The notes beneath the pieces are model-generated. The model saw nothing but the letters and a program-made list of their open reading frames with translations. It had not been told where the DNA came from and did no database searches. Shown here one piece after another: positions 3,313-13,022 of a stretch of DNA of 28,544 nucleotides. Each line of letters starts with the position of its first letter. The stretch's first letter is position 1. The DNA is from a virus. The stretch is from IMG/VR virus record IMGVR_UViG_3300050121_000084, positions 1-28,544 of that record; one strand, written 5' to 3'. The position numbers and the translations under genes are program-made.

Positions 3313-5235
3313 ATGAAACTCAGCACCATCCATCTTGAAGACTTCGGCCCATACGTGGACCAAACCATCAACTTCGACCAGCCACTCAACGTCATCCGCG
3401 GCGATCTTGCACAGGGCAAGACGAAGCTCTCGCAGGCCATCCAACTCAGCTTTGCCAGCATCTGCGCAGGCATCGACGGCAAAGGCTCCGGCTTCCGTGA
3501 CAAGATCCGTCTCGGGGAAGACAAGGCCATCATTACCGCTGGTCTGGAAACGGCGCAGGGATCCATCCAAATCAGGACCACCTACGGACCCGGCAAGAGG
3601 GGACGCGACTCTGTTGTGGTTGCAGGAGAGGGCAGCAGCGCGGTGAATCTTGCAGCGGGCTTCGAGCAGTATCTTCAGCGCAGTGAAGAGCGCTTCTCTT
3701 GTGTCCTTGACTCGGAATACTTCACACGTCCCGGCACAGACCAGCGCGCCATCCTCGCATCGCTGGTACTTCCCACGCATCACGACTTCGACGCAAAGAT
3801 GGTCGCATTGGTCGAGAAGCATCTCGGCAAGGTCATCGACTGGAATGCGAGTCCTGTTGCCGTCATTGACAAGGTGTTTGGCGACAAGAGCAGCGGCGTC
3901 TACAACGCCAGGACGCAAGCCAAAGCGGCGCTGGGGGCCATCTACATTCCGCAGAAACCTCTACAGCCTCAGTATCCTGCCGAGTTGGTCCAGCAGAAGC
4001 TACTGGCCTTGCGTGAGAAAGCCTCGCAGGAAGCGAAAAAGGTCAAGCGCTCTGGCACGGCGCAGACTGGTCGGCTAGAACGGGAACTTGAGCAGGTAGC
4101 GGAAAAACTCACTGCGGCATTCTCTGAGCGCACGGCGGCGATTGCCAAGCGTGGCGAGATTGAAGCCGAGATGGTAGACGGCGCGGCGCTTGCCAACCTC
4201 AAGCAGATTGCCGGCCAGCGCTCAGCCTTTGCCACGCTCCAGACGGCTATCGATGCCTTTGCTGCCGAGATTCAGGACATGAAGGACGCCCAGGAGATTT
4301 ACGAAGGACTCCGGGACGATTGCCTCTGCCCAACATGCAAGCAAGTTATCAAGCCCGAGTTCATCGCCGCCAAGATTGCCGAGCACAAAGGGCATGAACT
4401 GGAGTTGACAGAGAGCCGTGCGCAACTCATCCAGCAGCAGAAAGCGCTTGGCGACATCAAGGCGGCCGAGGATGCCATCCAGAAGCAGGAGAAGGCCGTT
4501 GCGGCAAAGCTGGAGCAGGTCAAGAAGGTAACGGAAACCACCGAACGCATCGCCACACTCGAAAAGCAAAGCGGGGACGCCAAGGCCGCATTGGACACCG
4601 CCAAGGCTGCCGAGTCCGAGCCGGTCGATACGACTGCGATCGATGCGGTCAACACCGAAATCAGCGAGTGGGAAGCGCGGTTGGCGCCGGCAGTGCAGTA
4701 CGAGTCAACAATGAAGCAGATCGAGACCAATTCGCAGCGCTGGCAGGACCAAAAGAATGCCGTCGATGAACTGGAAACACTCTGCGAACACTTCGGCCCC
4801 AAAGGCATCAAGGCCACTCTTCTGCAGAAGCACATCGGCGGGTTCAATGAGTCTGTGAATCGTGTCCTGAACTGGTGGGGATACTCGGCAACGCTTTCCT
4901 TTGAGCCCTACAGTTTCGATGTGGTGACGCCAGAGACTACACCGAAGACGCTGCCGGTCAAGGAGCTCAGCGGGTCCGAGTTGTTCCGGTTCCTGGTGGC
5001 TCTCCAGTGCGCAATCGCCGTCTACTCGAAGATCAAGATGGTCCTGATTGACAAGGCCGACATCCTGATTGACGCGCACCGCGGCAAGCTCTTCGCCGGC
5101 GTCAAGCACCTGCTCGATACCGGGCTGCTGGAGAAGGCTTTCATTTTTGTCGCTGACAAGCGGCGTGAGGCTCCGAAGCAAGAGGGGGTCGGGTTCTACC
5201 TGGTGGAGAAAGGGAAGGTTGAGAGACTGTCATGA
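3313..5235 (+). CDS. SbcC/Rad50/SMC-like ATPase with zinc hook
   Basis: The 640 residues follow the SMC/Rad50 layout. An N-terminal ATPase half begins MKLSTIHLEDFGPY with Walker A GDLAQGKTK (residues 30-38). Long charged coiled coils follow, with a CLCPTC zinc-hook motif at 337-342 near their midpoint. The C-terminal half has an ABC-type signature ELSGSELFRF (from about 551) and a Walker B-like MVLIDKAD near 576-583. Such proteins clamp or process DNA ends, usually with an SbcD/Mre11 nuclease. No Mre11-type gene is visible here. The residue after the Walker B aspartate is Lys581, where the catalytic Glu is expected, so ATP hydrolysis may be weak or differ in mechanism. The stop overlaps the next start (ATGA). 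Confidence 0.88.
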   Translation: MKLSTIHLEDFGPYVDQTINFDQPLNVIRGDLAQGKTKLSQAIQLSFASICAGIDGKGSGFRDKIRLGEDKAIITAGLETAQGSIQIRTTYGPGKRGRDSVVVAGEGSSAVNLAAGFEQYLQRSEERFSCVLDSEYFTRPGTDQRAILASLVLPTHHDFDAKMVALVEKHLGKVIDWNASPVAVIDKVFGDKSSGVYNARTQAKAALGAIYIPQKPLQPQYPAELVQQKLLALREKASQEAKKVKRSGTAQTGRLERELEQVAEKLTAAFSERTAAIAKRGEIEAEMVDGAALANLKQIAGQRSAFATLQTAIDAFAAEIQDMKDAQEIYEGLRDDCLCPTCKQVIKPEFIAAKIAEHKGHELELTESRAQLIQQQKALGDIKAAEDAIQKQEKAVAAKLEQVKKVTETTERIATLEKQSGDAKAALDTAKAAESEPVDTTAIDAVNTEISEWEARLAPAVQYESTMKQIETNSQRWQDQKNAVDELETLCEHFGPKGIKATLLQKHIGGFNESVNRVLNWWGYSATLSFEPYSFDVVTPETTPKTLPVKELSGSELFRFLVALQCAIAVYSKIKMVLIDKADILIDAHRGKLFAGVKHLLDTGLLEKAFIFVADKRREAPKQEGVGFYLVEKGKVERLS

Positions 5236-7207: not shown

Positions 7208-7774
7208 ATGTCGAACGCAGTTCGGTTATACAAGCCCGATGGCACCAGCGCTGGAGTTTTCATGTGCTCTGTTTGTCGCACGGTACACGCGACGGAGGAT
7301 CAGGCCAACTGGTGCCACGGTGAGCGTCTATGCGCTTGCGGGAAGAAGATTCAGCAGGGGTATTTCCAGCGCGAGTGCGAGGAGTGCCAGTGGAAGAAGG
7401 AATGGCGCGAAAAAGAAGCGGTGAAGGATGCCGAACGCTTCGAGAAAGCAACTAAGATCAAGGCTTCCGATTACGCCGGTGAGCATGTCTTCTGCGGCGA
7501 TCAGTATTACGATTCCGTCGAGGATGCTGTTGACCAGTTTCTTGAAGGCCAGGAACCGGAGTATGTGTGGGCGTGTCAGGATTCGCACCTACCACAAGTT
7601 GACCTCGCGGATGTGACATGCAACCTTTTGGACAACATGTGGGACGATGCCGACATTTCGGACCTGAACGGCATCGAAGAACTCGAAGCGGCGCTGAAAG
7701 CCTTCAATGAAGCCAACGAATCAGTCCAGATGTGGGATGTGGACTACTCGACGGCTATTATGGTTCAGGACTAA
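7208..7774 (+). CDS. Unknown Cys-rich, probable zinc-binding phage protein
   Basis: The 188-residue product starts at ATG 7208 behind GAAGGGAAAG. The N-terminal 60 residues carry Cys20, Cys23, Cys36-His37, Cys42, Cys44, Cys57 and Cys60. These could form one or two zinc ribbons or knuckles. The rest is acidic and helical, with many Asp/Glu and Trp residues and the sequence YYDSVEDAVDQFLEG. I cannot name a family. It is the last gene before the 182-base leader region, so it may end the first early transcript. A CAGGAC hexamer overlaps the penultimate codons and the stop. Confidence 0.8.
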   Translation: MSNAVRLYKPDGTSAGVFMCSVCRTVHATEDQANWCHGERLCACGKKIQQGYFQRECEECQWKKEWREKEAVKDAERFEKATKIKASDYAGEHVFCGDQYYDSVEDAVDQFLEGQEPEYVWACQDSHLPQVDLADVTCNLLDNMWDDADISDLNGIEELEAALKAFNEANESVQMWDVDYSTAIMVQD

Positions 7775-7794
7775 AACGAACCAAGACAGTCACC

Positions 7795-7853
7795 TTGACA
7801 GAGTTCAATCTGATTTTTCTTGACTCCCGAACTGGCGCGAATTACCTTTAATA
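7795..7853 (+). promoter_or_regulatory. Possible promoter for the replication operon
   Basis: The gap 7775-7956 holds a perfect TTGACA (7795-7800) and a TTGACT (7820-7825). Seventeen bases after the second is TACCTT (7843-7848), a poor -10. A better TTTAAT (7847-7852) is 21 bases away, which is too far for a standard promoter. A start point here would give a leader of roughly 100 bases containing the hairpins below. This is weak evidence from consensus matching only. Confidence 0.25.
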
Positions 7854-7881
7854 AGTCCCGCGCGCCAGCAACGGACCTCAC

Positions 7882-7950
7882 CCAGAGGGTTGCTCCTCTG
7901 GTCAGGGGGCGGTAGTCCTTCACTGCCGCCCCCGACCCCTTGAAGGAGGG
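7882..7950 (+). promoter_or_regulatory. Two-hairpin leader with loop complementary to the Shine-Dalgarno
   Basis: Hairpin 1 pairs CCAGAGG (7882-7888) with CCTCTGG (7895-7901) over a 6-base loop. Hairpin 2 pairs GGGGGCGGTAG (7905-7915) with CTGCCGCCCCC (7923-7933): 11 bp including one G-U. Its 7-base loop UCCUUCA (7916-7922) is perfectly complementary to UGAAGGA (7941-7947). That segment is part of the strong Shine-Dalgarno AAGGAGGG ahead of ATG 7957. An H-type pseudoknot hiding the ribosome site is therefore possible, although steric limits probably prevent all seven pairs from forming at once. No T-tract follows, so a simple terminator is unlikely. Confidence 0.5.
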
Positions 7951-7956
7951 AACTGA

Positions 7957-8178
7957 ATGCCATTTCCGCCCTACGTCGATTGGATCAGTGTCAAAGAAAG
8001 AATGCCCAGCGATTCGCGGGCTGTTCTCGTGTACTGCCGTGACCGAAAGAACACCTTTACTGCAAACTGGATGGAGCACTCCTATTGGGTCTATTTTGGA
8101 GGACTTTGCTTGCAAAAGATGGAGGAAGAAGTGCATTACTGGATGCCACTTCCGCCGAGTCCTACGGAGGCGCAATGA
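7957..8178 (+). CDS. DUF551 domain protein
   Basis: This small protein (73 residues) matches DUF551: an opening WISVKERMPSDSRAVLVYC, a middle segment with aromatic residues, and the closing HYWMPLPPSP. DUF551 proteins are common in phages and prophages and have no settled function. ATG 7957 has an excellent Shine-Dalgarno (AAGGAGGG, 7943-7950), which may be masked by the upstream leader hairpin. The stop overlaps the next start (ATGA at 8175-8178). As the first gene of the replication operon, its translation could set the level of those downstream through coupling. Confidence 0.85.
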   Translation: MPFPPYVDWISVKERMPSDSRAVLVYCRDRKNTFTANWMEHSYWVYFGGLCLQKMEEEVHYWMPLPPSPTEAQ

Positions 8179-8654
8179 CAGACTCCGAGCAAGAGAGAGC
8201 GTGCTACCTCGCTTACCCTCGCCATGTTGCCCCCGCCGCTGCTATCAAGGCCATTCGCAAGGCAGTTGACCGGCTCCGCAGAGGGTGCGATGAGTATGTC
8301 GCCATGGACTCCGAGACGGCCAGGCGGTTCCTCTGGAAGAAAGCAACCGAGTACGCTCGCTCGCCAGCAGGACAAAAGCCGCCAGGACCCGAAGACTACC
8401 GCCCTCACCCCGCAACATGGTTCAACCAAGAACGGTACTTTGATGATCATGCCGAGTGGCAGAAACCGAACGGAGCAAGCAATGGAAAGCAGACTGGTAC
8501 GAAAGCAGACCGGACAGTTGATGCAGTCAGAGCCGCTGTCTCCCAAGCAGCAGATCATAGTCGCGCTCGGGACACTCGCACTGATGAGGGGCGGCGAGTA
8601 CAGCCAAGCGACGCTGACAGCCTTTTCGGAAGGACTATCGAAGGAACCGTTTGA
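8175..8654 (+). CDS. Phage replication-associated protein with PHPATWFNQ motif
   Basis: The 159-residue protein starts at ATG 8175, overlapping the preceding stop. Residues 10-95 match a segment common at the C-terminus of phage replisome proteins: AYPRHVAPAAAIKAIRKAV followed by YRPHPATWFNQERYFDD. Here the segment stands alone without the usual N-terminal DNA-binding winged helix. The last ~57 residues are hydrophilic and low in complexity and overlap the next gene for 173 bases. Position upstream of a DnaB-like helicase supports a replication role, possibly as part of a helicase loader or origin complex. Function is inferred from context. Confidence 0.7.
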   Translation: MTDSEQERACYLAYPRHVAPAAAIKAIRKAVDRLRRGCDEYVAMDSETARRFLWKKATEYARSPAGQKPPGPEDYRPHPATWFNQERYFDDHAEWQKPNGASNGKQTGTKADRTVDAVRAAVSQAADHSRARDTRTDEGRRVQPSDADSLFGRTIEGTV

Positions 8655-9003
8655 GGATGTGATTCGAGTCCTGAAGACGATCGCAGAGAGCCCGCGGCGT
8701 GAGCGGGAAACCGCGTGTCCTGACTTCGGTACGCTTCTGGTGGCCATCCGGTCCATTCGGCACCCGCAAAGGCATCTGAGGGGCATTGTGGTGAAGTTGG
8801 CGCGCATCTTCGGCGTGACGGTGGACGAGGAGCTGCTCGGACTGTACGAGGAGCGCGCCGGTCACCGCACAGATCAGGACATGGACACGGCTTATCGAGT
8901 CCTGAGCCAAAATGAAACGCTGAAGAAAATGCCCACGCCGGCGCAACTCTTGGCAGCGTGCGGTATTCCGAAAGTCTACCGGGATGGGACGAGGCCGGAA
9001 TGA
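8482..9003 (+). CDS. Unknown helical protein, possible replisome or helicase-loading factor
   Basis: I choose ATG 8482 (173 residues) because GGAG lies at 8472-8475. ATG 8521 (MQSEPLSPKQQ) is an alternative. Either way the gene begins inside the previous one in another frame. The protein is mostly helical: SEGLSKEPFEDVIRVLKTIAE is followed by CPDFGTLLVAIRSI, and a second helical repeat ends KKMPTPAQLLAACGIP. The two halves resemble each other in layout, an amphipathic helix followed by a Pro-containing 'fPt-ll' turn. This is typical of small phage proteins located before DnaB helicases. No catalytic motif is visible. The stop overlaps the methyltransferase start (ATGA). Confidence 0.7.
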   Translation: MESRLVRKQTGQLMQSEPLSPKQQIIVALGTLALMRGGEYSQATLTAFSEGLSKEPFEDVIRVLKTIAESPRRERETACPDFGTLLVAIRSIRHPQRHLRGIVVKLARIFGVTVDEELLGLYEERAGHRTDQDMDTAYRVLSQNETLKKMPTPAQLLAACGIPKVYRDGTRPE

Positions 9004-9644
9004 CGCCATACTACGAGCACGCTGGAATCACCATCTACCACGGCGATTGCCTGGAGATTCTTCCCTCACTGCCGAAGTGCGACCTGCTGCTGACCGATCC
9101 GCCGTATGGGATTAACCGCGATGGTAAGCCGCCCTCGACTTCAAGCCACGGCGGGCATAAGGGCTATGAATTTGCTGGATGGGATAGCCAAACTCCAGAC
9201 AAGGACATGTTTTCTTTGCTTTACGAATCAGCGAAGGATTGGATGATTTGGGGAGCTAACTACTTTTCTCCTTTTATTATTCCCGGTCCAGGATGGGCGC
9301 TTTGGGATAAAGGGCAGCGCATCGACCAAGCAGACAGGGAACTGGCAGCAAGCTCACGGCGCGGGCCTTTGCGCGTGTTCACACTCAACAGAGTGGCACT
9401 CATGGGCGATGGGGCTTGCCATCCTACTCAGAAGCCCCTCGCGCTGATGAAGTGGTGTCTTTCCCTGTTCCCCGACGCCAAGACGGTCGTGGACCCATTC
9501 TGCGGCTCAGGAACCACGCTTGTAGCTGCAAAGGCGATGGGGCTGACAGCAATCGGGATTGAACTGCACGAGCCTTACTGTGAGATCGTCGCCAAGCGCC
9601 TGAGCCAAGAAGTCTTTGACTTCGGAGGCCAGAATGACCGCTGA
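9000..9644 (+). CDS. DNA methyltransferase, beta-type, DPPY motif
   Basis: This 214-residue N6-adenine or N4-cytosine methyltransferase has its catalytic motif IV, LTDPPYG, at residues 31-37. The S-adenosylmethionine-binding motif I, VDPFCGSGTTLVA, is near the C-terminus, and HPTQKPLALM lies before it. That order is the beta class. The middle region that should recognise the target is short. DPPY alone does not separate m6A from m4C, although m6A is more usual. No partner restriction gene is visible, so it is an orphan enzyme that could protect phage DNA. It starts on the stop of the previous gene and its end overlaps the helicase start by 11 bases. Confidence 0.92.
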   Translation: MTPYYEHAGITIYHGDCLEILPSLPKCDLLLTDPPYGINRDGKPPSTSSHGGHKGYEFAGWDSQTPDKDMFSLLYESAKDWMIWGANYFSPFIIPGPGWALWDKGQRIDQADRELAASSRRGPLRVFTLNRVALMGDGACHPTQKPLALMKWCLSLFPDAKTVVDPFCGSGTTLVAAKAMGLTAIGIELHEPYCEIVAKRLSQEVFDFGGQNDR

Positions 9645-10986
9645 CCTCACACTCGACGCAGGACTGCCAGCTTCTATCGATGCCGAGCGCACGCTCCTAG
9701 GTGCTGTCCTTTTGGATAACCAGGCATGGGAGGAGATTCGCGCCGGCCTGAAGTCGGAAGATTTCTTTCTTGATTCCCATAGGCGCATCGCCAAAGCCAT
9801 CGGCGGCCTCATCAAGAACGGCCATGCCGTTGACATTGTGACGCTGGCAAACGAACTGACCGCACGGAAAGAGATTGAAGCCGTCGGAGGGGTGGCCTAC
9901 TTGGCATCCCTCACAGAAGGCCTTCCGCGGCGGCCAGTCATCGACGAGTACGTGGCTATCGTGAAGGACCGTAGTGTCCTGCGGCAGTTGATGGCCACAT
10001 GCACGGAAGCTATCTCCCGCGCACAGGACCAGTCTGAGACAGGACTCGAATTGACTGCCGGCCTGATGGGTCAGTTAGAGAATCTGACTACTCCAAGCCA
10101 AAGCGCCAACAAAGCCCAAGTCCAGAACTTCATTGTTGAATCCCTGGCAGAGATCAACCGGGAGTACGCCGAGAAGCTGAGCCCGTGCATCCCGACCGGT
10201 AACGCATGGCTGGACTCGAAGATGGGTGGTGGATTCCGGCATGGTCATATCACGATCATCGCGGCGCGGCCTAAGGTTGGCAAGACATCCGCAGGCGTTT
10301 CCTCGATGGCCTATAACCTGAAACAGGGTCGCAAAGTGGTGATGTTCTCGCTGGAAATGGAGAAGTCGGAGATCCTGAAGAACTTGGTTCCTTACGTGGT
10401 GGACCTGCCGAACATCGTGGTCGCCCGTCCATGGCTCCAGACTCCAGAGCAGAACCGGCTGGTCAATGAGGCCATGAACACCATCGTAGAGTGGCCTCTG
10501 AGCGTCTATGACGGCGACATGGACTGTGATGAGGTCTGCTGGACCATCGACCGCGAGACGCGCAAGGGAGACGAGGTTCTGTTCGTTCTGGACCACTTTG
10601 GCTTGATGACCGGAGCCGAGAAGGATATTCGCAAGCGGTACGTCGAGAACTCTGACCGCCTCCGCAGGAAGATGAAACACAAGAGGGCTGCATTGCTGTC
10701 CCTCTTTCAGTTGAATGAGGTCCCGCGGGAGTACGCAGACAAGCGGCCGCAACCTGGGGACATTGGCGAAAGCAAGAAGCCGTTGCAGGATTGCTTTGCG
10801 ATGATCCTGTTGCATCGGTATCAGGACAAAGAGACAATGCGCATGACAAAGAAGGCGAACATCAATCTTGCACTCATCCGTGGAGGTGGAGCGCCGGGGA
10901 ATGTAGACGGAGAGTTCAATGCGCGTCGGCTTTCATTTGAGGCAGACGCGGAAATTGACTACGAAGGGCAGGACTACTATGCGTGA
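9634..10986 (+). CDS. Replicative DNA helicase, DnaB-like
   Basis: The protein has 450 residues, starting at ATG 9634 behind GGAGG (9624-9628); an in-frame TTG 18 bases earlier lacks this spacing. An N-terminal DnaB domain opens with SIDAERTLLGAVLLDN (residues 14-29) and includes YLASLTEGLP. The RecA-like C-terminal domain has Walker A ARPKVGKTS (211-219), the family motif FSLEME (238-243) and Walker B LFVLDHFG (Asp320). DnaB hexamers unwind DNA at the phage fork and recruit primase. No separate primase or DnaC loader is recognisable nearby, so host factors or the two preceding small proteins may load it. The stop lies inside the next gene. Confidence 0.93.
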   Translation: MTADLTLDAGLPASIDAERTLLGAVLLDNQAWEEIRAGLKSEDFFLDSHRRIAKAIGGLIKNGHAVDIVTLANELTARKEIEAVGGVAYLASLTEGLPRRPVIDEYVAIVKDRSVLRQLMATCTEAISRAQDQSETGLELTAGLMGQLENLTTPSQSANKAQVQNFIVESLAEINREYAEKLSPCIPTGNAWLDSKMGGGFRHGHITIIAARPKVGKTSAGVSSMAYNLKQGRKVVMFSLEMEKSEILKNLVPYVVDLPNIVVARPWLQTPEQNRLVNEAMNTIVEWPLSVYDGDMDCDEVCWTIDRETRKGDEVLFVLDHFGLMTGAEKDIRKRYVENSDRLRRKMKHKRAALLSLFQLNEVPREYADKRPQPGDIGESKKPLQDCFAMILLHRYQDKETMRMTKKANINLALIRGGGAPGNVDGEFNARRLSFEADAEIDYEGQDYYA

Positions 10987-11122
10987 GCGTCCTGATGTTG
11001 ATTTGAACCTCATCCAGCGGCAACTTGCGGGCATAACCGAATTCCTCAAGAAGAACGTATGGAAAGGGAAAGATGCCGATCAAAAGAAAACCGAAGACGC
11101 CGGGGAGCGGAAGGCCATCTGA
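10979..11122 (+). CDS. Small unknown phage protein (47 residues)
   Basis: ATG 10979 overlaps the helicase stop by eight bases, and the frame runs to TGA 11120-11122. The product is charged and probably helical, with QRQLAGITEFLKKNVWKG in the middle. The upstream AAGGGCAGGA (10964-10973) gives a modest Shine-Dalgarno. The tight overlap on both sides supports a real gene in the operon. I recognise no family. Confidence 0.6.
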   Translation: MRERPDVDLNLIQRQLAGITEFLKKNVWKGKDADQKKTEDAGERKAI

Positions 11123-11273
11123 TGCTGTGATGGATGCGTATGCTCAACGGTACGAACTATCAGTTAAGCAAAAGACGCTCCTCACCCGCTGCATAGTTCA
11201 AGTTTCACTCTGCCAGAGCGATGAAGCGCGCAGATTGCTGTTAGGTGTAAGCCAGAAAGAAGTGGCGGCATGA
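11073..11273 (+). CDS. Small unknown phage protein (66 residues)
   Basis: ATG 11073 lies 50 bases inside the previous gene and follows GGAAAGGGAAAG (11059-11070), a usable Shine-Dalgarno. The product begins with a Lys/Arg/Pro-rich stretch (PIKRKPKTPGSGRPS) and ends with helices containing VKQKTLLTRCIVQ and EARRLLLGVSQKEV. A helix-turn-helix is conceivable, but I see no clear match. The stop overlaps the next start by four bases (ATGA), as elsewhere in this operon. Confidence 0.6.
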   Translation: MPIKRKPKTPGSGRPSDAVMDAYAQRYELSVKQKTLLTRCIVQVSLCQSDEARRLLLGVSQKEVAA

Positions 11274-11644
11274 TTCATCGCAGGACTCCACTGAAACGCT
11301 ACACGCCAGTACGCAAGAAACGGCCAGGAGTGCGCAAGGGGCAACCTACCAATGCGGAAAAGGAAACCGAACGCAACCGGGTTTATGAACGATGCGGCGG
11401 CCAGTGCGAATTGCGAGACGAAGATGGAAAGCCGTTGCATCCGAAGCATATCTTCGGGGTCCTGCCAAGCAAGGGAAGCATCTTTGAGCGCTGGCACCTT
11501 GTACACCTCCACGGGAAACGCCGATTCGGTTGGACGGAAGCAGCCGGCAACACGTTACTGGGGGGCTGCTATTGGTGCCATATCGTAGCAATGCACGAAC
11601 TCGGTCTTAAACCACACATCGAAAGGAAAGATCATGAACTATGA
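11270..11644 (+). CDS. HNH-like zinc nuclease-type protein
   Basis: The 124 residues start with the basic leader MIHRRTPLKRYTPVRKKR, common in phage HNH and NinG-like recombination proteins. Next come RCGGQCELRD (Cys42, Cys46), WHLVHLHGKRRFGW (His77, His80, His82), and GGCYWCHIVAMH (Cys100, Cys103, His104, His109). That spacing suggests a zinc-bound HNH fold, though the catalytic residues are not certain by eye. The encoded activity may be a DNA-nicking enzyme helping recombination or replication restart. ATG 11270 overlaps the preceding stop and the end overlaps the helicase start by 11 bases. Confidence 0.75.
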   Translation: MIHRRTPLKRYTPVRKKRPGVRKGQPTNAEKETERNRVYERCGGQCELRDEDGKPLHPKHIFGVLPSKGSIFERWHLVHLHGKRRFGWTEAAGNTLLGGCYWCHIVAMHELGLKPHIERKDHEL

Positions 11645-13022
11645 AGAGTTTCTGGAGTCCAAGGAGCAATACGGGGGAGATGCTGGATTCAAAGCTATCT
11701 CTATTCCTGATATGCTGTTCGACTTCCAAGGCGATACGGTTGAGCGGTCCCTGCGGAGAGGGCGCTCATCTATCTTCTTCGATTGCGGACTTGGCAAGAC
11801 TCCGATGGAGTTGACCTGGGCTGACAACGTGGTCCGCCACACAAACAAGAAAGTTCTGTACATCACTCCGCTAGGCGTGGCCAAGCAAACCATTCGAGAG
11901 TCTGAGAAGTTCGGCATCGAAGCGCACCGTTCAAATGATGGGCAGCTTGTCTCTGGAATCAACGTAACCAACTACGAGAAACTCCACCGTTTCAATCCGA
12001 ACGACTTCGCCGGGGCGGTGTGTGATGAGTCGTCATTCATCAAGGCAATGAACGGCAAGCGGCGCGCACAGGTGACTGAGTTTCTGCGCACGCTACCTTT
12101 CCGCCTGCTGGCCACGGCAACGGCCGCCCCTAACGATTACATCGAGCTTGGCACATCCTCCGAAGCCTTGGGTGTGATGGGCCAGATTGACATGCTCAAT
12201 CGCTTCTTTAAGAATGATCAGAACACCAGCGACACCCGCATGATGATTCGGCGCGCGCCAAACCAAGGCGGTCCAGTTAGCGCAGGATGGCGATTCAAGG
12301 GCCATGCGGAAGAACCGTTCTGGCGTTGGGTTTGCTCTTGGGCACGCGCGGCCCGCAGGCCGTCCGATGTTGGCCCATACTCCGATGCGCGCTTTGTCTT
12401 GCCACGCCTGATTGAGCGTGAGCACATCGTAGAAACGCGCACGCTGCCCGATGGGATGCTCTTTCCGCTGGCGGCAACCAACATGCAAGAGGAGCGCGAA
12501 GAACGCCGCCGCACCGTGCAGGAACGCTGCGAGATGGCCGCATCTTTGGTTGCTAGTACAGGCAAGCCATTCGTGATTTGGTGCCAGTTGAATCCTGAAG
12601 GCGACTCACTTGAGCGCATGATTCCTGATGCCGTTCAGGTTTCAGGTTCAGACAGCGACGAAGAGAAGGAAGAGAAGTACGAAGCCTTCGCAAGCGGTCA
12701 GGCTCGCGGCATCATCACCAAGCAGGTCATCGGCGGATGGGGACTAAACTGGCAGCATTGCGCCCACGTAGTAGAGTTTGCGACGCACAGTTTTGAGCAG
12801 CACTATCAGGGCGTTCGCCGCTGCTGGAGATTTGGACAAACGCATGATGTAATCAACGACCTGATAGCAACCGAAGGCCAACGAGGAATCAAAGAGAACT
12901 TGCGGCGCAAGCAGGTTGCCGCTGACAAGATGTTTGACGAACTGGTACGCCACATGAACGAGTCAGTCCGCATCGAAGGCGGATACAAATTTGAGAAAGA
13001 GGTAACAACGCCATGCTGGTAA
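11634..13022 (+). CDS. SNF2/DEAD-type helicase-like ATPase
   Basis: This compact superfamily 2 ATPase has 462 residues from ATG 11634, with GAAAGGAAAG as Shine-Dalgarno. Motif I is CGLGKTPME (residues 51-59), motif II is CDESSFIK (130-137), and motif III-like LLATATAAPND is at 158-168. The C-terminal RecA-like lobe has VIGGWGLNWQHC and the motif VI-like SFEQHYQGVRRCWRFGQT, whose arginines contact ATP. The DESS version of DEAx and the RFGQ ending are typical of SNF2-like phage proteins. Such enzymes translocate on double-stranded DNA. It overlaps the following methyltransferase by 10 bases, so the two are probably made together and act together on phage or host DNA. Confidence 0.9.
   Translation: MNYEEFLESKEQYGGDAGFKAISIPDMLFDFQGDTVERSLRRGRSSIFFDCGLGKTPMELTWADNVVRHTNKKVLYITPLGVAKQTIRESEKFGIEAHRSNDGQLVSGINVTNYEKLHRFNPNDFAGAVCDESSFIKAMNGKRRAQVTEFLRTLPFRLLATATAAPNDYIELGTSSEALGVMGQIDMLNRFFKNDQNTSDTRMMIRRAPNQGGPVSAGWRFKGHAEEPFWRWVCSWARAARRPSDVGPYSDARFVLPRLIEREHIVETRTLPDGMLFPLAATNMQEEREERRRTVQERCEMAASLVASTGKPFVIWCQLNPEGDSLERMIPDAVQVSGSDSDEEKEEKYEAFASGQARGIITKQVIGGWGLNWQHCAHVVEFATHSFEQHYQGVRRCWRFGQTHDVINDLIATEGQRGIKENLRRKQVAADKMFDELVRHMNESVRIEGGYKFEKEVTTPCW

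Follow-up and report, generated by a model that had tools for sequence, protein, structure and literature searches.

The window, by which we mean the whole stretch of 28,544 nt that was analysed (positions 1 to 28,544 of the IMG/VR virus record IMGVR_UViG_3300050121_000084), carries a replication operon that begins with a small DUF551 gene and a gene for a replication-initiation-like (rep-like) protein. In front of the first gene lies a conserved unit (about 7795-7956), which is larger than the hairpins that it contains, includes a promoter-like block and excludes the first gene. The features of this locus, together with the R2 element of a more distant clade, are collected in Table 1.

Table 1. 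Coordinates of the leader features, the adjoining genes and the R2 element.
Feature	Position	Strand	Remarks
TTGACA, promoter-like -35 hexamer	7795..7800	+	Invariant in window-clade leaders; no canonical -10 at 16-18 nt
TTGACT-17-TACCTT, putative promoter	7820..7848 (7820-7825, 7843-7848)	+	Hexamers and spacer length invariant; spacer letters vary
Possible short 5' stem, GUCC/GGAC	7855..7876 (7855-7858/7873-7876)	+	In the MFE fold; bases invariant
Hairpin 1, CCAGAGGG-UUGC-UCCUCUGG	7882..7901 (7882-7889/7894-7901)	+	8 pairs including one G-U; 4 of 8 pairs changed on both sides and still paired; 3 sequence versions, 100% of cells paired
Hairpin 2, GGGGGCGGUAG-UCCUUCA-CUGCCGCCCCC	7905..7933 (7905-7915/7923-7933)	+	11 bp and 7-nt loop; -23 to -24.5 kcal/mol
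Loop of hairpin 2, UCCUUCA	7916..7922	+	Complement of 7941-7947; invariant in all leaders
Hairpin 3, CCCUU-GAAG-GAGGG, SD-masking	7937..7950 (7937-7941/7946-7950)	+	-5.8 kcal/mol; competes with loop-SD pairing; invariant in all leaders
Loop partner, UGAAGGA	7941..7947	+	Overlaps the SD
Shine-Dalgarno (SD), AAGGAGG	7943..7949	+	
First gene, DUF551 (73 aa)	7957..8178	+	Pfam PF04448, E 2e-11; other genes in relatives
Replication-initiation-like gene (159 aa)	8175..8654	+	PHROG 270, E 3e-10; start overlaps first-gene stop (ATGA)
R2 element (third clade)	L068:5783-5907; L070:5768-5901; L071:5016-5147; L074:5821-5953; L075:5812-5942		

Hairpins 1 and 2 stand in tandem early in the transcript, separated by 3 nt. 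Read in reverse, the hairpin 2 loop is exactly complementary to its partner, which overlaps the strongest SD of the window. The positions that a sequence-only reading of this DNA had given for both hairpins, the loop and its complement were all confirmed. On the + strand of the window, TCCTTCA occurs a single time, as the loop, and AAGGAGG occurs twice, the leader SD among them; GAAGGAGGG is found once in the window. Hairpin 3, which was absent from the earlier reading, hides the SD without a pseudoknot. It is part of the MFE fold, with the SD bases GGAGGG paired at P > 0.9, and the whole leader is more stable than its own shuffles (z = -3.0). Standard folding favours hairpin 3, and the pseudoknot energies are rough estimates.

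Upstream of the hairpins, two promoter-like sequences are present. The hexamer TTGACA also precedes the rep gene in the distant clade in identical form. TTGACT-17-TACCTT was missed by a strict consensus promoter scan, and no sigma-70-like promoter was found on either strand of 7600-8200 with a consensus that may not be that of the host; judged by its conservation, TTGACT-17-TACCTT may nevertheless be the promoter, in which case the RNA would begin close to 7855 and the leader would measure some 100 nt. A dyad in this region (CTGGCGCG..CGCGCCAG, 7832-7868) was rejected as an operator or hairpin, its arms being broken in the related leaders L008 and L014. A leader peptide in 7850-7957 was rejected as well: the one long frame lacks an SD, and a TAG codon breaks it in L014 and L020.

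The loop-SD complementarity in the window is beyond chance. Hairpins of at least 8 bp were considered, and a loop was counted when it had a 7-nt Watson-Crick match no more than 25 nt downstream. One of the about 60 such hairpins on the + strand had a match, namely hairpin 2 of the leader, compared with about 0.11-0.15 such loop matches in each shuffled window. Of 400 dinucleotide-shuffled windows, one contained a match that involved both an SD and a start codon, and permutation of the loop letters gave an equally good match in 0.7% of cases.

The predicted pseudoknot would be of the H-type, with a stem 1 of 11 bp, a stem 2 of 5-7 bp, a loop 3 of 7 nt and a linker of 7 nt. When stem 2 has 6-7 bp, loop 1 must cross the deep groove over about 10-12 Å, which is impossible with 0 nt; with 5-6 pairs in stem 2, loop 1 gains 1-2 nt and spanning is feasible. 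The shallow-side crossing of 11 bp, about 40-42 Å, is feasible but tight with 7 nt (7-8 nt here), and the reported minimum in the IBV pseudoknot is 8 nt across 11 bp (PMC7618472). On these model distances, loops of H-type lengths could feasibly, if tightly, span both stems, only with 5-6 pairs in stem 2. The earlier description of the pairing as sterically strained is therefore right for the full 7-bp pairing but not for 5-6 pairs, where loop 1 has 1-2 nt and the 7-nt loop is close to the 8 nt of IBV.

Related leaders were sought in IMG/VR with five queries: hairpin 2, the upstream block, the loop plus SD, a hairpin pattern that left the loop free, and the rep-like protein. The complete leader was present in 18 contigs, and one further copy was truncated. 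The rep-like proteins of these relatives are 77-94% identical to that of the window, and the leader is nearly unchanged. Loop, partner and SD are invariant across the 18 contigs, and the loop-free pattern brought up no homologue in which the loop differed, so the complementarity pointed out in the sequence-only reading is kept in every related leader found. Between hairpin 2 and the SD, 6 of 49 columns vary and all 14 loop and partner columns are invariant, which has a chance of 0.12 and, taken alone, is not significant. As all seven stem-2 pairs are invariant, the loop-SD pairing cannot covary in the window clade, and the covariation for which homologous leaders were to be inspected was seen in hairpin 1, as compensatory changes. 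Hairpin 1 exists in three versions (CCAGAGGG..UCCUCUGG, CUCUGGG..CCCAGAG and CUCUGGGG..CCCCAGAG), and the four pairs changed on both sides indicate that it is selected as a structure, with few independent events. The variation of hairpin 2 is confined to its 3' arm, where C was changed to U twice with the pairs kept as G-U, and a G to U change in L009 and L012 breaks a U-G pair (one of three variable pairs lost).

One full copy of the leader was found in 12 of the 13 records searched, with second weak matches of 19 nt in G012 and G013, and a covariance model of the leader gave one match per genome. In agreement with the earlier statement that no known riboswitch class is recognised, no Rfam family matched the leader at the gathering score or at a relaxed E-value, all hits being chance matches far below gathering. 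Six pattern matches (L045, L049, L052, L097, L098 and L099) were rejected as chance matches and not relatives, and a loose leader pattern on genome contigs gave 21 matches, about the chance expectation, 0 of them with an SD partner. At the DNA level, comparison of the window region with named phages and plasmids, and of 7208-12000 with named phages, found no match other than a stretch of 106 nt (about 9006-9111) in the DNA methylase gene, which is 78.5% identical to Microcystis phages.

The first gene behind the leader is not constant. The window has DUF551 in this position, most relatives have a Cys-rich protein of 69 aa, L008, L009 and L012 have an AAA+ ATPase, and L013 has an unrelated protein of 125 aa. 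The replacement begins immediately behind the start codon, the distance from SD to start is unchanged, and the stop of the first gene and the start of the rep-like gene overlap or abut in the relatives (TAGTGA, TAGATGA or ATGA). Since the leader persists in front of different first genes, it is the leader and the operon that are under selection, not any one gene, and the leader belongs to the operon, not to DUF551. Autoregulation by the DUF551 product, one form of the autoregulated leader suggested earlier, is thus unlikely; a product from further down the operon might act in this way. The coupling to downstream genes that the same reading proposed is plausible in view of the overlapping or abutting genes. 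The gene upstream of the leader (7208-7774 in the window) varies too, and in L011, L018 and L009 a 225-aa gene is followed directly by the leader. The leader thus forms an island of conservation, flanked on both sides by genes that can be exchanged. In the gene maps of far rep relatives (Rhizobium, Brevibacterium, Pontimonas, Gordonia and Arthrobacter phages), no leader-sized gap was found before rep.

The search with the rep-like protein led to two named relatives, Tunturi_1 and Tunturi_2, which are Tunturiibacter phages whose host of isolation belongs to the Acidobacteriota (PMC11924767). Their leader sits between ssb and the first replication gene, which encodes an HNH-type endonuclease in Tunturi_1 and is the rep-like gene itself in Tunturi_2. 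The two leaders are 100% identical over 165 nt and count as one case, examined after the hypothesis was formed. The model of the window leader, R1, had no match in Tunturi or in the distant clade, and homology is unrecognisable in sequence. The Tunturi leader consists, in order, of an upstream hairpin, GGGUCGGAGG-GACUUGAAGA-CCUCCGACUC, GCCUUUA, CUUCAAG and the SD AAAGG. Its loop CUUGAAG is the exact complement of CUUCAAG beside the SD, with a stem of 10-11 bp and a linker of 6-7 nt, and the competing SD hairpin is GCCUUU-ACUUCAAG-AAAGGU (-4.2 kcal/mol). In the Tunturi locus of 10 kb, a 7-nt loop match was seen in 1 of 15 hairpins, that of the leader, against an expectation of 0.03; 0.9% of the loop permutations match equally well. 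The loop-SD design recurs at the same operon position, and in a closely similar geometry, in this unrelated sequence.

Two further features of the Tunturi locus were observed. A perfect palindrome, TTAGAACGTTCTAA (L110:4269-4282, also in L111), lies at the upstream end of the leader and looks like an operator for a LexA-type protein or a repressor. The rep-like ORF of Tunturi_2 (MSEQEMDLLIYQQYPRKVG..., L111:4869-5264), directly behind the leader, is unannotated in PP885685.1, where an annotated helicase loader at 5158 begins inside this ORF in a different frame.

A third clade (L068, L070, L071, L074 and L075, rep identity 49-67%) has neither the window leader nor the Tunturi leader, and its leaders were likewise examined after the hypothesis existed. 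Before its rep gene lies a structured element of about 130 nt, R2, which is present in one copy per genome and absent in the window clade. The element has 41 consensus pairs, 12 of them with compensatory changes, and no Rfam match; neither it nor a prophage relative was found in 396 genomes of the phylum Acidobacteriota. The R2 hairpin loop UUGGCGGU (UUGGCGG) complements CCGCCAA in the 3' tail of the element itself. In L068, L070 and L071 it also complements ACCGCCA immediately in front of the rep SD; this SD-side match includes a G-U pair in L075 and is missing in L074. As a cis control, the match between the R2 loop and the rep SD is suggestive only, and cis action is not assured because a TTGACA promoter-like hexamer lies between the element and the gene. 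The motif UUGGCG is named as the loop motif of the ColIb-P9 Inc RNA target in a title cited in PMC10724649. Between the R2 element and the rep promoter, L068 and L070 (5907-5940 in each) also carry a hairpin TTTTCAG..CTGAAAA, the loop of which contains ACCGCCA(A), another sequence complementary to the R2 loop.

Judging from these sequences, the leader probably does control the replication genes. A conserved promoter-plus-5'UTR unit would head the replication operon of the phage group, and in its RNA hairpin 1 would play a supporting part next to the strong hairpin 2, with a very strong SD lying within the weak hairpin 3. The loop of hairpin 2 complements the loop of hairpin 3 together with SD bases, and the RNA could thereby switch between hairpin 3 and the H-type pseudoknot. 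The competition between the two would set the ease of ribosome loading on the first gene, and the overlapping start and stop codons would relay the control to the rep-like gene. We give about even chances to this reading, in which a leader with two states gates the operon, and we infer for it the formation of the pseudoknot, the translational control and a trigger.

The pseudoknot may either lock the SD or, through the opening of hairpin 3, release it. With all seven pairs formed in the window, AAGGA, or 5 of the 7 SD bases, would be covered, which suggests repression; with five pairs (CUUCA/UGAAG), GAGGG would stay accessible. In the Tunturi leader, the modelled pairing leaves AAAGG free and suggests activation, which would be the more natural reading there. 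The earlier proposal of a pseudoknot that hides the SD is favoured by a complementarity that exceeds chance, is kept and recurs in Tunturi_1 and Tunturi_2, but the simpler hairpin 3 also masks the SD and is preferred by folding. For three unrelated sequences at one operon position, the simplest common logic would be that a hairpin masking the SD competes with a pseudoknot formed by loop and SD. It can be entertained, tentatively, that a recurring SD-capturing loop design, in at least three unrelated sequences, gates the replication operons of a phage group probably of Acidobacteriota, that it is convergent with or descended from the copy-number control of IncIalpha and IncL/M plasmids by antisense RNA and pseudoknot, and that the first gene is freely exchanged.

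Other explanations must be weighed against the two-state leader. Hairpin 3 alone might tune the SD, with hairpins 1 and 2 stabilising or spacing the mRNA, the loop being no more than similar to an anti-SD sequence and no pseudoknot being formed. Such plain masking would account for the presence of hairpin 3 in the MFE fold, the strong pairing of the SD (P > 0.9), the invariance of hairpin 3 in all leaders and the SD hairpin of the Tunturi leader, and phages are known to use it (T4 e, soc, 49 and I-TevI, and Aeh1 mobE; PMC3014915). It does not account, however, for a separate strong hairpin whose loop exactly complements the loop region of the SD hairpin, at an identical distance, in two sequences unrelated to each other, and we regard it as possible but doubtful. 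The hairpins might also act on RNA polymerase, by antitermination or pausing of the put type, or protect the 5' end from decay, in which case the SD match would be secondary. Two strong hairpins so close together and so early in the transcript, a hairpin 1 that is kept in shape and not in sequence, as in a stabiliser, and a leader that is independent of the first gene would all suit such an element. It is unlikely, however, in that hairpin 2 and its loop are conserved in sequence too, the element extends into the SD, no terminator-like site was found on the + strand near the leader, and no put-type RNA was matched in Rfam.

An antisense or trans-acting RNA, or a phage RNA-binding protein, could use the hairpin 2 loop as its recognition site, as the invariant loop and upper stem and the structured RNA of the third clade, with the UUGGCG motif known from the title cited in PMC10724649, would allow; no consensus antisense promoter was found, the + strand has no loop complement other than the SD partner, and this explanation appears quite unlikely. 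The leader could be a PeSL-like junction for the exchange of first genes, under otherwise ordinary regulation. In both clades the exchange of the first gene sets in directly behind the start codon, and the upstream gene varies, but the leader occurs once per genome whereas PeSLs are dispersed, the compensatory change in hairpin 1 shows selection on structure, and the loop-SD complementarity would be left unexplained; a recombination cassette is very unlikely as the explanation and is not exclusive of the two-state leader. The likeness to preQ1 or SAM-II riboswitches, raised in the sequence-only reading, is an analogy of the general layout, a hairpin loop that pairs with the SD, and nothing indicates a metabolite. 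Rfam gave no match at either threshold, no conserved binding core lies outside the hairpins and the SD, and the downstream genes are not metabolic, so a classical metabolite riboswitch of the preQ1-II or SAM-II style can hardly be at work here.

Several known systems share parts of this design. The PeSL cassettes of T4-like phages and the SAS/ESAS sequences of cluster K mycobacteriophages are, like the leader, conserved promoter/stem-loop or SD-associated units amid changing neighbours; they are repeated across the genome (SAS/ESAS, PMC3203893; PeSL, PMC4503421), whereas the leader is single-copy. In T4 e, soc, 49 and I-TevI and in Aeh1 mobE, a local helix hides the SD as hairpin 3 would, and in T4 this masking separates early from late transcripts (PMC3014915). 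Unlike the leader described here, SD hairpins of the T4 e type have no second hairpin whose loop complements the SD hairpin. The gene 32 leader of T4, T2 and RB69 resembles the present one in that an H-type pseudoknot, predicted here, precedes a replication-associated gene. In gene 32, some 67 nt separate the pseudoknot from the start codon downstream of it, and binding of the gene's own product is nucleated there (PMC3014915), whereas here the second stem would fall on the SD, and the exchanged first gene argues against autoregulation by a product. Leader and gene do not stay together as in the gene 32 type, four types of first gene being found behind the leader.

By analogy, the best reading is that the leader may work like the rep leaders of IncIalpha and IncL/M plasmids. 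In ColIb-P9 and the IncL/M plasmids, a pseudoknot is required for rep translation and is blocked by an antisense RNA (PMC8383071, PMC8125031). As in IncIalpha (ColIb-P9 repZ) and IncL/M (pMU604 repA), a hairpin loop in a rep leader would pair beside the SD, and a competing structure can hide the SD; a loop complementary to bases at or near the SD was found in the window, in Tunturi and in the third clade, where the likeness extends to a UUGGCG motif in the loop and a CGCC(A) close to the SD. The leader differs from the plasmid systems in that no leader peptide conserved in the window clade and no antisense promoter were found, the linker is very short (7 nt) and the first gene is usually not the initiator. 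If the reading is true, a leader that controls the replication operon regardless of the identity of the first gene would be a different kind of use. Its recurrence in unrelated sequences makes it directly testable by swaps of loop and partner; Tunturi_1, Tunturi_2 and their host are cultured. It would also offer a clean comparison of replication control in phages and in plasmids.
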